Source: a virus
IMG/VR virus record: IMGVR_UViG_3300044972_000416
Span: 1-24,126 of that record
Reading direction: 5' to 3' (one strand)
Length of the DNA stretch: 24,126 nt
Positions within the stretch are counted from its first letter, which is position 1; each line of letters starts with the position of its first letter. The position numbers were made by a program, and so were the translations under genes. Positions 3,583-16,267 of the stretch are shown here, one piece after another. The notes under the pieces are model-generated. The model had not been told where the DNA came from, made no database searches, and saw only the letters and a list, made by a program, of their open reading frames with translations.

Positions 3583-3585
3583 AGC

Positions 3586-3925: not shown

Positions 3926-4059
3926 GAATTTTGTTGTTTAATTAATAAAATAATAATTGAAGGTATTGCTATTAATTCTGCGACACCCAACACATAAATG
4001 TTTGTCGTTGCTATTGCTACAAATACTAATAACAACGAAATTGATAATAATAATTTCAT
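3910..4059 (-). CDS. 49-aa protein with two predicted membrane helices
   Basis: Begins MKLLLSISLLLVFVAIATTN. The first hydrophobic stretch spans residues 3-18 and a second spans about 29-40, with a short basic tail KQQNSWKQK. This resembles the helical-hairpin organisation of small phage membrane proteins. Its start overlaps the preceding stop by ATGA. Holin-like or host-membrane roles are possible but not shown. Confidence 0.55.
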   Translation of the reverse strand: MKLLLSISLLLVFVAIATTNIYVLGVAELIAIPSIIILLIKQQNSWKQK

Positions 4060-4220
4060 AATACGTTTTTCATTTTACTATTGTTAATTAATTCACGAGG
4101 CGTTATTAAGCCTAACTTATAAGCATTCGTGTAGTTTGTGTCTTCTTTTGTCGCTATCAAGTCTGCAAATATTTTTTCAGTCTCAAAAACTAATCTGTAT
4201 GCTAATTTTATTTTAGTCAT
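4056..4220 (-). CDS. Hypothetical protein, 54 aa
   Basis: Begins MTKIKLAYRLVFETEKIFAD and contains NAYKLGLITPRELINNSKM. It is predicted to be helical. It is the first gene downstream of the type I hammerhead. Cleavage there would leave this mRNA with a 24-nt leader starting UUAACC. Function is unknown. It couples by ATGA to the membrane protein gene that follows. Confidence 0.65.
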   Translation of the reverse strand: MTKIKLAYRLVFETEKIFADLIATKEDTNYTNAYKLGLITPRELINNSKMKNVL

Positions 4221-4237
4221 AATAAATAATTTTAATT

Positions 4238-4288
4238 GGTTAAGACGGGCAATGCCCGTTTCGACTATCTAAGTCTCGTCAGTTAACC
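4238..4288 (-). ncRNA. Hammerhead ribozyme, type I
   Basis: Minus-strand RNA reads stem I GGUUAA (4288-4283), core CUGACGA (4282-4276), stem II GACU/AGUC with loop UAGAU (4275-4263), core GAAA (4262-4259), stem III CGGGC/GCCCG with loop AUU (4258-4246), cleavage dinucleotide UC (4245-4244), and stem I UUAACC (4243-4238). Every stem is perfectly paired and every invariant core base is present. The cleavage triplet is the canonical GUC. With stem I open, this is a type I hammerhead. Predicted cleavage lies between 4244 and 4243. It sits 2 nt after the stop of 4291-4446 and 18 nt before the start of 4056-4220. Confidence 0.92.
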
Positions 4289-4290
4289 TG

Positions 4291-4446
4291 TTACTTTATT
4301 TTGTAGAATATTACGTCACCGCAATTTCCTTGTCTACTAAATCCTTTATTTATTATTTCATTAGCCTCTTGAATAGTTAGCGTTTTGTTTACACCTTTAG
4401 TAGTTAAAAAAATTTGTCCGTTAGGGTAGATTGTTAGTGTTTTCAT
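4291..4446 (-). CDS. Hypothetical protein, 51 aa, second gene of the ribozyme-flanked pair
   Basis: Begins MKTLTIYPNGQIFLTTKGVN and ends VIFYKIK. The layout is a beta hairpin, a helix (TIQEANEIINKG), then a strand with RQGNCGDV, a compact alpha/beta module I do not recognise. It starts 1 nt after the stop of 4448-4672, and its stop lies 2 nt before the type I hammerhead. After cleavage, the transcript carrying it would end in the ribozyme's stem II/III structure with a 2',3'-cyclic phosphate. Confidence 0.65.
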   Translation of the reverse strand: MKTLTIYPNGQIFLTTKGVNKTLTIQEANEIINKGFSRQGNCGDVIFYKIK

Positions 4447-4447
4447 A

Positions 4448-4672
4448 TTATTTAATTTTAACGTTTAACAATATCTTTTGTGCTCTTATGATCGCACTAC
4501 ATTTTTCTAGTATTTCCTCGGCTAATTTATAGTCATCCCCATCATCCTCAAGGTAGTCAAACTGACCTACAAGTTCATACATTGTGTCGTGGTATGTATC
4601 AAAAAACAATCCCATCTCTAGTTGATTATACAACTTGTTTACTTCTTTTTCAATTTGTGATAGTGTCTTCAT
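4448..4672 (-). CDS. Hypothetical acidic protein, 74 aa, first gene of the ribozyme-flanked pair
   Basis: Begins MKTLSQIEKEVNKLYNQLEM. It is predicted to be all-helical, with an acidic middle (LEDDGDDYKLAEEILEK) and a basic end (NVKIK). No known family. It is the first gene of the leftward operon. Its ATG lies 12 nt after the type III hammerhead, whose cleavage would leave a leader of about 60 nt containing most of the ribozyme. The leader has the A/T-rich start region AAAUUAUUUAUUAUG. Confidence 0.75.
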   Translation of the reverse strand: MKTLSQIEKEVNKLYNQLEMGLFFDTYHDTMYELVGQFDYLEDDGDDYKLAEEILEKCSAIIRAQKILLNVKIK

Positions 4673-4684
4673 AATAAATAATTT

Positions 4685-4737
4685 AACGTTTCGTCGTTCT
4701 GCGACTCATCAGCATGGATAACACATCCATGTACGTT
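4685..4737 (-). ncRNA. Hammerhead ribozyme, type III
   Basis: Minus-strand RNA reads stem III AACG (4737-4734), UA cleavage dinucleotide (4733-4732), stem I CAUGGAU/AUCCAUG with loop GUGUU (4731-4713), core CUGAUGA (4712-4706), stem II GUCG/CGAC with loop CAGAA (4705-4693), core GAAA (4692-4689), and stem III CGUU (4688-4685). All invariant core bases and the G10.1-C11.1 pair are present. The cleavage triplet is GUA. Stem III is open and only 4 bp, but may extend by UUU/AAA beyond an AGA bulge. Predicted cleavage lies between 4732 and 4731. It is the last element of the operon leader. Confidence 0.9.
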
Positions 4738-4962
4738 TCTAAACCAACTATAAGCCTCCCAACTTATAACCTTTATAACACCTATTTAGTGCTGTTTACA
4801 TTTCGCTCTTCACGGCAACTACTCCGCTTATAACTCCTGTTTGTTCAGTAGAGTGGTTATGGTGACACTTACACCTCCGCCACTTTATTGCTGTGGTCTC
4901 GCTACATCCCAATAGGAAGGGATGAAATCCGATTTAATAGGTTGTTAATCTCAACCTTAATT
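4738..4962 (-). ncRNA. Structured 5' leader, released by hammerhead cleavage
   Basis: About 225 nt lie between the leftward promoter and the type III ribozyme, with no convincing ORF and less A+T than the region upstream. Minus-strand hairpins include GGUUG/CAACC, CAUCCC/GGGAUG (4924-4919 with 4910-4905) and UAUAAG/CUUAUA (4768-4763 with 4754-4749). Ribozyme cleavage would free it as a discrete RNA of about 230 nt. I cannot assign a family. It may be a regulatory RNA or simply a long UTR. Confidence 0.5.
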
Positions 4963-4968
4963 CTGTCG

Positions 4969-5000
4969 CAAAGTAACGACGACTTTTTTTAATATGCAAA
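4969..5000 (-). promoter_or_regulatory. Leftward promoter, Bacteroidota type
   Basis: On the minus strand TTTG (5000-4997) is followed after 20 nt by TTACTTTGC (4976-4968). This closely matches the Bacteroidota consensus TTTG-N19-20-TAnnTTTG. Transcription would start near 4962 and run through the structured leader, the ribozyme and the small-gene operon. It is the only promoter here with both boxes. Confidence 0.65.
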
Positions 5001-5238
5001 ATTTTAACAAAACTTTAACACTTGCTATCTTTTCATCTTGTGTACCATACTGCTAAGCGTAACGTGTGACCAACTAATTTACAATACTCGGGTGCTTACC
5101 TTTATACATTCACTCATTATATATAGTGCACATGCATATCGGATAGCCTTTGGCAAATAACTTACATAACATTAAAAGAACGTGTCTCATTTTGACTCTG
5201 CGAATATATGGCGACTTTTTTATATATGAAAATAAAAT

Positions 5239-6424: not shown

Positions 6425-6673
6425 ATGGACCACAAGAGAATCGTGCTTTACATGGTTGACATGTTCAACTACGACAAGCAGGACCATGTGTTGGTCCACA
6501 GCAGGTACGACGACGACATTAGGTCGTACGAGGTTACCCTTATACATAAAGGCAGGAAGGATGTTTACAGCACGCTTTACAACGACACGTTTGAAAAGGC
6601 GGAGCAGAACACGTATAAATTAGTATTAAACACTTTAATAGAGAGAGCATTTTTAAATTATGACAGACTTTAA
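6425..6673 (+). CDS. Hypothetical protein, 82 aa
   Basis: Begins MDHKRIVLYMVDMFNYDKQD. The layout is an N-terminal strand or helix, charged beta strands (RSYEVTLIHKG), and a C-terminal helix (KAEQNTYKLVLNTLIERAF). Unknown family. It overlaps the chaperonin gene by 14 nt in another frame, so the two are probably translationally coupled, and it shares GC-rich codon use with the chaperonin gene. Confidence 0.7.
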   Translation: MDHKRIVLYMVDMFNYDKQDHVLVHSRYDDDIRSYEVTLIHKGRKDVYSTLYNDTFEKAEQNTYKLVLNTLIERAFLNYDRL

Positions 6674-8267
6674 TTACAGCCCAAAGGAGCTGATCTTCGA
6701 CCAAGAAGGAAGAGAGAAACTAATAAAAGGAATAAGCACGATCGCCAAGGCGGTTAAGAGCACGTTGGGCCCAAGGGGTAACACGGTCCTTATTGAATCA
6801 CGAAGCCATACCCATGGTATAACGGTTACAAAGGATGGGGTTACGGTTGCTAGGAGCATCGACCTGCTGGATCCTGTTGAGAACCTAGCGGTTCGTATGA
6901 TGAAGGAGGCCGCTGATAGAACGGCATCGATGGCTGGTGACGGTACGACCACTGCGATTGTATTGACTGAGGCGATTGTTAAGAACGGGATGGACATGCT
7001 TAAGGACACGCACAACGTGAGCGAGGTGATTAGGCACATGAACAAAATCACGGACGACGTGATTAAGCTGCTTGAGAAGAGGTCCAAAAAGGTGAGCGGT
7101 AAGACGCTGTCTGACGTGGCTACAATCTCTGCTAACAACGACAAGGAGATTGGGAAGATTATTGCTGACGTGTATAACAAGGTCGGGAAGAACGGGATCG
7201 TTACAGCGAACAACTCACAGACGGCTGAGACGTACTACGAGTTCACAAATGGGATCAAAATCGACAGAGGGTACACGTCTAACTTATTCATTAACGACTT
7301 CAAGAAGGACGAGTGCATCATGGAGGACGTTTATGTGCTGGTGAGTGACCAGGAGATAAATAACATCCTGTCTATCGAGCGTGTGCTGAGACCAATCATT
7401 AACGAAGGTAAGAAGTTGTTGATTATTGCCCCGTGTTCAGGGAACGTGATTAACACCTTGGCAGCTAACGTTGTTCAGAACAAGGTGAAGATGTGCAACA
7501 TCTCTCCGCCTCAGTTCGGGTACAAGCAGAAGGAGCTGATGGGAGACATTGCCCTGGCTGTTGGAGCGAAGTACTTCAGCGAGCAGACTGGTGATGACTT
7601 AAGCTTAATTGGCATGGAGCACTTGGGTAGAGCTGAGCGCATCATCATTGGAAGGGACAGCAGCGTTATTGTTAGATCGGAGGACGTGAGTCCAGAGATG
7701 CAGGAGCGAATTGATCAGCTGTGGCAGGCTCACGAGAACACATCTCGCAAGGCTGACAAGGACTTCATTAAGGAGAGGATCGCCTCATTAACTGGTGGTG
7801 TTGGTGTTATATATGTTGGCGGATCGTCTGACATTGAGCAGAAGGAGAAGTACGACAGGGTTGACGACGCGATTTGTGCGGTTAGATCTGCGATTGAGGA
7901 AGGGATATTACCTGGAGGAGGGTTGGCGCTGTTCAATATCTCGGACGAGTTGTCATTCTTGGCGGATGAGAACATTGAGGACATGAGCAAGGAGCAGTTC
8001 GTGGCGTACCATATTATGTCAAGATCGATGCAGGCACCGCTGTGTCAGATAATGGTCAACGCAGGACTGGACCCATGGGACATCATGAAAGATCCTACGA
8101 CTGCACATGCTTACGGGTACGACGTTAAGAACAACGTGTTCGGTGACATGTACGCTATGGGCGTGATTGACCCACTGAAGGTGACCAAGAACGCGCTTAA
8201 GAATGCGGTGTCGGTGGCATCAACAATACTAAGTACAAATGCAATAATAACAATAGCGAGAGCGTAA
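6660..8267 (+). CDS. groEL: Phage-encoded GroEL-type chaperonin (Hsp60)
   Basis: At 535 aa it covers the whole Hsp60 fold. The equatorial ATP-binding motifs are present: TLGPRGN (35-41), TKDG (57-60, with the D52-equivalent Asp59) and GDGTTT (93-98). The catalytic Asp398 equivalent is Asp403 in RVDDA, followed by EEGILPGGG. The apical domain starts near DRGY (202-205) and keeps some substrate-groove residues, but by eye has Glu where E. coli has Leu234. The protein stops at TIARA without a GGM-repeat tail. All catalytic residues are present, so it should be an active ATP-driven foldase. It probably folds virion proteins together with the GroES-like protein two genes downstream. Codon use is GC-richer than in flanking AT-rich genes. 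Confidence 0.95.
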   Translation: MTDFNYSPKELIFDQEGREKLIKGISTIAKAVKSTLGPRGNTVLIESRSHTHGITVTKDGVTVARSIDLLDPVENLAVRMMKEAADRTASMAGDGTTTAIVLTEAIVKNGMDMLKDTHNVSEVIRHMNKITDDVIKLLEKRSKKVSGKTLSDVATISANNDKEIGKIIADVYNKVGKNGIVTANNSQTAETYYEFTNGIKIDRGYTSNLFINDFKKDECIMEDVYVLVSDQEINNILSIERVLRPIINEGKKLLIIAPCSGNVINTLAANVVQNKVKMCNISPPQFGYKQKELMGDIALAVGAKYFSEQTGDDLSLIGMEHLGRAERIIIGRDSSVIVRSEDVSPEMQERIDQLWQAHENTSRKADKDFIKERIASLTGGVGVIYVGGSSDIEQKEKYDRVDDAICAVRSAIEEGILPGGGLALFNISDELSFLADENIEDMSKEQFVAYHIMSRSMQAPLCQIMVNAGLDPWDIMKDPTTAHAYGYDVKNNVFGDMYAMGVIDPLKVTKNALKNAVSVASTILSTNAIITIARA

Positions 8268-13384: not shown

Positions 13385-13651
13385 ATGGCGTATCAAAAAT
13401 TACAAGCAGGAAGAGCAGCGGTTGTTTCACCAAGTAACACGGCTAACATACCAAACGTAGCTACAGAAGACGGATCAGGTAACAACGGATGCGTTTTATA
13501 CGTGGGTACAAAAGGAAATATTAAGGTTATGACTGTCGGTGGTGATGAGGTTACTTTCACTAACATTCAAGACGGTAGCTTTATACCTGTTAATGTTTTA
13601 AAGGTATTCTCTACAGGAACAACCGCATCTAATATTATAGCTCTTTGGTAG
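13385..13651 (+). CDS. Small conserved virion-associated protein, 88 aa
   Basis: Begins MAYQKLQAGRAAVVSPSNTA. It has a beta-rich body with GCVLYVGTKGNIKVMTVGGD and ends IPVNVLKVFSTGTTASNIIA followed by LW. This ending (V-L-K-V-F-S-T-G-T-T-A-S-x-I-x-A-L-W) is strongly conserved in a small phage protein usually found beside tail or neck genes. It may be a trimeric spike or decoration protein; that role is inferred from context. Confidence 0.85.
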   Translation: MAYQKLQAGRAAVVSPSNTANIPNVATEDGSGNNGCVLYVGTKGNIKVMTVGGDEVTFTNIQDGSFIPVNVLKVFSTGTTASNIIALW

Positions 13652-15897: not shown

Positions 15898-16098
15898 ATG
15901 AGTAGAAAAGAAAAAATAGATTTACTACTTAGCAAGTGGGTAAGTAGAAAGTTAACAGTATTTGTTATAGCATCCGTTGGTTTATTCAGCGGATCTATAA
16001 CCTCTACTGACTGGGTTATAGTTGCAACTGCTTATATAGCTACTGAAGGTGCTACTTCTATTGTTGAACGTTTAATGAAAGTAAAAAATGTCGCGTAA
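15898..16098 (+). CDS. Putative holin, 66 aa
   Basis: Begins MSRKEKIDLLLSKWVSRKLT. Two hydrophobic segments (about residues 20-34 and 38-50) are separated by the short polar turn TSTDW, and the ends are charged. This matches the small two-helix 'SRK...STDWVIVATAYI' proteins often annotated as holins beside phage endolysins. It would form the inner-membrane lesion that releases the M15 peptidase. It overlaps the next gene by 11 nt. Confidence 0.7.
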   Translation: MSRKEKIDLLLSKWVSRKLTVFVIASVGLFSGSITSTDWVIVATAYIATEGATSIVERLMKVKNVA

Positions 16099-16267
16099 CG
16101 ATTTCAGAATGTACATACTAAACAGTATAACTATGGCACTAAGCTTTTCTAACCTGGAGAGTGCATTAAAGATAATACTACTTATCGTATCTATTTTTTA
16201 CACCATTTTAAAGATGGTTGAAACATTAAGAAAAAAAGAAAATGACAACAAAGGAGACAATATCTAA
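16088..16267 (+). CDS. Small membrane protein of the lysis cassette, 59 aa
   Basis: Begins [20 protein letters not shown]. One clear membrane helix spans about residues 27-43 ([17 protein letters not shown]), followed by a charged tail ending [10 protein letters not shown]. It overlaps the holin candidate by 11 nt and the peptidase gene by 26 nt. It could be a second holin, an antiholin or a pinholin. Similar one-helix proteins sit in this position in many phages; the exact role is unknown. Confidence 0.7.

Follow-up and report, generated by a model that had tools for sequence, protein, structure and literature searches.

Type III and type I hammerhead ribozymes around small, exchangeable genes in a Bacteroidota phage

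The phage record IMGVR_UViG_3300044972_000416 of IMG/VR, whose 24,126 bases form the window analyzed here, carries on its minus strand a type III and a type I hammerhead ribozyme that enclose two small genes. Judged from their sequences, both elements are almost certainly real hammerheads, and both are probably of the active type, cutting the polycistronic RNA of an accessory-gene operon into separate messages, a form of punctuation at the RNA level. The analogy with similar phage arrays, for which cleavage has been observed both in vitro and in E. coli (PMC3088659), lends support to this reading. New here are the wide recurrence of the arrays in Bacteroidota phages, the leading position of the type III element in nearly all mixed arrays, and the retention of the ribozymes while the framed genes are swapped.

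The host group of this phage is the Bacteroidota. The window comprises GroEL-like, tail-fibre, tail, terminase, and portal genes, and its terminase has hundreds of relatives in IMG/VR. The named relatives of the phage are Flavobacterium Elemovirus, the Cellulophaga podoviruses (Pachyviridae and Pervagoviridae), and Tenacibaculum and Maribacter phages. The GroEL-like chaperonin (positions 6660-8267, plus strand; PHROG 5725, E 1.6e-135) is phage-encoded and kept in close relatives. A repeat of 23-33 nt (456-483, 636-663, 856-878, 1165-1187, and 2412-2434) lies just 5' of several minus-strand start codons and is also found in relatives; it constitutes a repeated translation leader devoid of a ribozyme. 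The features of the array, all on the minus strand and listed in the direction of transcription, are as follows.

4969..5001, minus strand: promoter-like site of the Bacteroidota type (TTTTG ... TTACTTTG), from sequence and similar motifs in relatives
4738..4963, minus strand: non-coding leader RNA with two short covarying hairpins, removed if the type III element cleaves
4685..4737, minus strand: type III hammerhead ribozyme, predicted cut 4732^4731 (direct reading, core scan, RNAfold, lineage model)
4448..4672, minus strand: framed gene 1, encoding 74 aa and without known relatives (ORF call)
4291..4446, minus strand: framed gene 2, encoding 51 aa and without known relatives, its stop codon 2 nt short of the type I element (ORF call)
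4238..4288, minus strand: type I hammerhead ribozyme, predicted cut 4244^4243 (direct reading, Rfam, core scan, RNAfold, lineage model)
4221..4243, minus strand: 23-nt leader of the downstream message after the type I cut, conserved with the ribozyme
4056..4220, minus strand: gene downstream of the type I element (54 aa), with an unrelated gene in its place in the sister phage

Structure and detection of the two hammerheads

Read on the minus strand, the type III element (AACGU-A^CAUGGAU-guguu-AUCCAUG-CUGAUGA-GUCG-cagaa-CGAC-GAA-ACGUU) comprises stem III (AACGU/ACGUU), stem I (CAUGGAU/AUCCAUG, closed by the loop GUGUU), and stem II (GUCG/CGAC), around a perfect core (CUGAUGA and GAA) and with the cleavage triplet GUA. 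The type I element (GGUUAA-CUGACGA-GACU-uagau-AGUC-GAA-ACGGGC-auu-GCCCGU-C^UUAACC) is built from stem I (GGUUAA/UUAACC), stem II (GACU/AGUC), and stem III (ACGGGC/GCCCGU), and exhibits an equally perfect core (CUGACGA and GAA) and the triplet GUC. Each of the two therefore displays the CUGANGA...GAA core, the three stems, and the NUH triplet that define a hammerhead, stem III being the open one in type III and stem I in type I. RNAfold recovers both folds unprompted. A strict scan for the core plus stems over the 24 kb returns these two sites only, and the same scan finds any match in 4 of 300 Markov-simulated strands of window length.

The Rfam models report both elements below the gathering score, which is the cut-off of the curators and not a biochemical property: RF00163 reaches 26.5 bits in the window (gathering 34; E 0.013 over all Rfam and 3e-6 in a single-family search) and RF00008 22.6 bits (gathering 48.5). 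None of 38 related records passes the Rfam hammerhead gathering scores either, though their elements covary. A search at the gathering threshold would report nothing, and lineage covariance models were used instead. Their training sets, 15 hammerheads for each of types I and III, came from other phages and included neither the window nor its sister phage. Each model returns a single match in the window, at 4238-4288 for the type I model (R1; 52.7 bits, E 4.8e-12) and at 4685-4737 for the type III model (R2; 62.9 bits, E 1.1e-16); these E-values are rough, with a margin of many orders of magnitude. The two hammerheads that an earlier note had read directly from the sequence are thus borne out by cores, folds, and lineage models, although not by the Rfam thresholds to which that note had appealed.

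Framed genes, leaders, and the predicted RNA pieces

ORF calls agree with the earlier reading that two genes (4448-4672 and 4291-4446) sit exactly between the ribozymes. Framed gene 1 has no relative in the fetched loci or in the collections searched, framed gene 2 none among the loci fetched, and Pfam and PHROGs return essentially nothing on the function of either. Since two hammerheads of opposite types lie in coding orientation around two genes, the operon RNA would be cut as that note had described, into a middle piece of 488 nt, with the correction that the leader of the downstream message counts 23 nt (4243-4221) and not 24.

Upstream of the array, the site at 4969..5001 deviates by one mismatch from the Bacteroidota promoter consensus, which we take to be TTG-N~20-TAnnTTTG, and TAnnTTTG-like motifs lie about 120-240 nt 5' of many leading type III elements in the relatives. 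The intervening RNA had been called a structured leader. Its folding energy is unremarkable (z -0.9), so the description rests on two short hairpins, which do covary among relatives: pair counts in 10 of them give 88% of cells paired, with 5 of 8 pairs changed on both sides, a result reached in 0 of 500 shuffles. The leader matches no Rfam family, even at E 10. The leaders located 5' of type III elements fall into a few exchangeable types (window 4738-4963 on the minus strand, L110, L114, L216, L318, L111, L086, and L119), which share a GACCACAG...AAAGTGGCGGA hairpin and a second hairpin, both covarying and without an Rfam match. This leader RNA is possibly an undescribed small RNA.

If the operon is co-transcribed, the type III element at its head would cut off the non-coding leader, and the type I element between genes would leave the upstream message with a 3' end bearing the hairpins of the ribozyme itself, and the downstream message with a leader of about 22 nt that ends at the start codon. 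By topology, the catalytic body of a type III element would stay on the downstream product and that of a type I element on the upstream product. As either body thus stays on the side of the cassette, the piece between a type III and a type I element would carry hairpins at its two ends and terminate in a 5'-OH and a 2',3'-cyclic phosphate. The stability of such an end-capped piece may plausibly be tuned and its translation uncoupled from that of its neighbours; the 5'-OH and 2',3'-cyclic-phosphate ends could also be destabilising rather than stabilising.

Recurrence of the arrays and gene exchange

Hammerhead arrays recur in a large group of Bacteroidota phages, including the cultured Flavobacterium Elemovirus and Cellulophaga phages. 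Contexts were collected by running two DNA patterns over IMG/VR, one fixing only stem I and the CUGANGA part of type I, the other fixing the core, the stem II flank, and the GUGU stretch of loop I of type III and leaving its stems I and III free. GAAA is present in 136 of the 137 type I contexts, 121 of which form both unconstrained stems (at least 3 and at least 4 pairs), and both unconstrained stems form in 75 of the 84 type III contexts. Nearly all Watson-Crick types are seen at each stem pair in either set, so that the stems of both ribozymes covary across homologues. Elemovirus also possesses a type III homologue with a covarying stem I. The type I element shared by Elemovirus A and B shows a double compensatory change in stem II, which reads GAC/GUC in one isolate and GGU/ACC in the other. 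In Elemovirus F (L348, NC_055853.1, about 16045-16102, minus strand), stem II of type I combines the GAC and ACC halves, with two pairs broken; from its sequence, this element looks like a natural recombinant or knock-down.

Run against 39 records, the two lineage models report type I elements in 13 and type III elements in 13, among them Elemovirus (both types) and the Cellulophaga phages phi19:3 and phi18:3 (type I); the type III-model match of phi19:3 is weak and overlaps its type I element. At least one element is present in 5 of the 7 terminase-selected records above 52 kb. The close relative L086 is devoid of the type I element and some related records lack both, which indicates that the elements are dispensable. 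No type II hammerhead was found in the 13 loci scanned.

The position of the elements relative to genes is regular, the loci counted having been chosen by ribozyme patterns or terminase similarity and some being incomplete, so that the position and array counts given here are no census. Over distinct contexts, sites outside called same-strand ORFs number 156 of 158 for type I and 101 of 107 for type III. Measured from the type I start, the stop codon of the preceding ORF ends between -20 and +10 nt in 127 of 148 cases; the commonest such stop (40 cases) is the UAA contained in the type I stem I arm (GGU UAA). The median distance to the next ATG is 22 nt from the type I cut and 23 nt from the type III end. 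At least two ribozymes are present in each of 62 locus-strands, a number that includes some overlapping fetches of one contig; the maximum is six, and the orders include III-I, III-I-I, I-I-I-I, and III-III-III. Intervals mostly hold one to four genes. The type III element comes first in 15 of the 16 mixed arrays (13 plus L114, L115, and Elemovirus), the exception being L162. The arrays thus group several same-strand hammerheads around single phage genes or short runs of them, and in the window likewise the elements share a strand and are separated by short gaps. The comparative search envisaged by the earlier note does find the III-I pair in relatives, although along with other orders, and the two-gene cassette does not hold as a conserved unit, as the number and identity of the framed genes differ from phage to phage. 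Some phages possess type III elements only (L112, 11565-14616; L247, L250, L263, L281, and L289), in arrays of two or three that surround a more conserved gene set, including a class II glutamine-amidotransferase-like protein.

The closest relative, IMGVR_UViG_3300033571_002446 (L118), shares 96-97% identity with the window over most flanking genes and 99% over the terminase protein. Homology ends at 4964 and resumes at 4063, and between these positions only two islands are kept, the type III element with the start region (74 nt, 96%) and the type I element with its leader (72 nt, 98.6%); the leader between the promoter-like site and the type III element, the two framed genes, and the gene that follows the type I element are unrelated. 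A 92%-identical relative, the above-mentioned L086, keeps the type III element with other genes. About twenty other phages carry one of the framed genes of L118; it immediately precedes a type I element in several of them and immediately follows one in a single phage, and in most no ribozyme is adjacent. Among the distinct ribozyme-adjacent proteins, 204 of 395 are singletons. Elsewhere, non-coding insertions of ~170 nt or longer lie between conserved genes of L118 (about 1498 down to 946, minus strand) and L086 (about 13424-13592) and are absent from the window at 3583/3587; that of L118 has a fold z of -0.9 and no Rfam match.

A conserved ribozyme creates homology ends by itself, for which reason a breakpoint test on all homology ends (odds ratio 5.4) was discarded and repeated with long blocks only. 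Per-site means of long-block ends are 0.73 at ribozyme junctions and 0.44 at plain gene junctions (per-locus Wilcoxon p 2e-5), 0.70 against 0.60 when compared with junctions within 1 kb (p 0.05), and 0.70 against 0.56 within 2 kb (p 0.008), the locus pairs being non-independent in all three comparisons. The excess shrinks against nearby junctions, so that variability extends to the entire neighbourhood; the locus as such is hypervariable, with a hint that the ribozymes are stable connectors for rapidly exchanged genes. In terms of RNA punctuation, the array would lie in a hypervariable accessory-gene locus in which ribozyme and start region persist and the intervening genes are exchanged.

Alternative readings and known systems

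The same exchange data suggest a different role, which we regard as possible and favour less: the ribozymes may be mainly conserved DNA islands that, with the start region, provide short homology for recombination, ORFs being swapped as ready-made cassettes with an integron-like outcome, without an integrase, and RNA cleavage being secondary. The 72- and 74-nt ribozyme-plus-start islands, 96-99% identical between sisters whose leader, framed genes, and next gene are unrelated, are consistent with it, as are the many singletons (204/395), the more frequent ends of long homology blocks at ribozyme junctions (0.73 vs 0.44, p 2e-5), and the apparently chimeric type I element of Elemovirus F. However, the excess is small against neighbouring junctions (0.70 vs 0.60 within 1 kb, p 0.05; locus pairs non-independent), and neither compensatory change nor an invariant catalytic core is needed for DNA homology, so that both speak for selection on RNA structure. 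It is highly improbable that the elements are inactive relics, or chance hairpins such as terminators with a mere likeness to hammerheads: the Rfam scores are below gathering and some hammerhead-like RNAs in Perreault 2011 are inactive (PMC3088659), but the cores are perfect, the model E-values amount to 1e-12 and 1e-16, the stems covary over dozens of phages with fixed orientation and position, and, by direct reading, no long T run lies 3' of either element.

Ends of the hammerhead type (5'-OH and 2',3'-cyclic phosphate) are ligatable by RtcB, and the earlier note had deemed circularisation of the framed RNA conceivable. The stem I arm is often common to the type I copies of a locus (63 of 86 pairs, a figure biased by the search pattern), so that pieces between two type I elements could in principle rejoin. 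Cleavage in the service of circularisation or ligation is nevertheless very unlikely for the piece between a type III and a type I element, because its own ends complete the cleavage junction of neither ribozyme, because RtcB was not found in 39 related phage records (phages only were searched; a host RtcB is possible), and because Perreault et al. sought spliced or circular array products and found none (PMC3088659). Nor is this opposite-type pair the same-type tandem of hammerhead circles. In retrozymes and viroid-like satellite RNAs, two hammerheads also delimit a unit of several hundred nt, as a same-type tandem around a non-coding, circularising monomer (PMC6155905, PMC4918200); here, in contrast, opposite topologies surround protein genes in a DNA phage, and no retrozyme-like tandem is present.

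RNA punctuation, the reading we prefer, has its closest counterpart in prophages, where multiple hammerheads of types I, II, and III flank single genes or short gene blocks; self-cleavage was seen in vitro for three of these arrays and in E. coli for one (Perreault et al. 2011, PMC3088659). A 2017 review describes hammerheads close together, flanking ORFs for small non-conserved proteins and persistently related to phages, and still treats the role of hammerheads in prokaryotes and phages as an open question (PMC6155905). The arrangement, which the earlier note had held to be undescribed, therefore belongs to an already described kind. Nothing closer than these two papers was found on phage hammerheads that accompany gene cassettes or process mRNA. 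In the open-licence papers searched, no description was found of such arrays in Elemovirus or Cellulophaga phages, of an order headed by type III, or of framed-gene exchange; with the search so restricted, this negative is no proof of absence. The Perreault arrays resemble the present ones in that several hammerheads of types I-III lie on one strand around small, variable, unknown phage genes, and they were likewise proposed to process long phage RNAs. They differ in that the phages here are mostly of about 60-75 kb and related to Elemovirus and the Cellulophaga podoviruses, that type III comes first, after a variable leader RNA, and type I follows, and that the ribozymes are conserved between sisters whose framed genes differ. 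The window type I element also aligns to the core of the RAGATH-1 hammerhead (RF03152), but with 28 bits against a gathering score of 56.3, and the extra 5' hairpin of that family would fall, poorly matched, in the coding end of framed gene 2.

Integron gene cassettes share with the array small unrelated ORFs, each with a conserved structured element behind it, whereas the element is here an RNA ribozyme and no integrase or attC site was identified, so that there is resemblance only; the GTTAAC arm looks superficially like GTTRRRY and does not match it. As a tentative extension, the hammerhead with its start region might be a universal connector, type III at the head and type I internally, that offers homology for exchange and amounts to an integrase-free cassette system for fast-changing accessory genes. 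An ORF placed between two connectors would be expressed at once, because the connector makes both the preceding 3' end and the next 5' leader in the RNA. If true, this would account for the small size of the framed ORFs and for their lack of relationship between phages. Since cultured carriers exist (Flavobacterium Elemovirus, Cellulophaga phi18:3 and phi19:3), along with natural variants that are compensatory (Elemovirus A vs B) or broken in stem II (Elemovirus F), the role of the hammerheads is directly testable by RNA-seq of ordinary laboratory infections. These arrays are a real example, testable in cultured phages, of a known but unexplained phenomenon.
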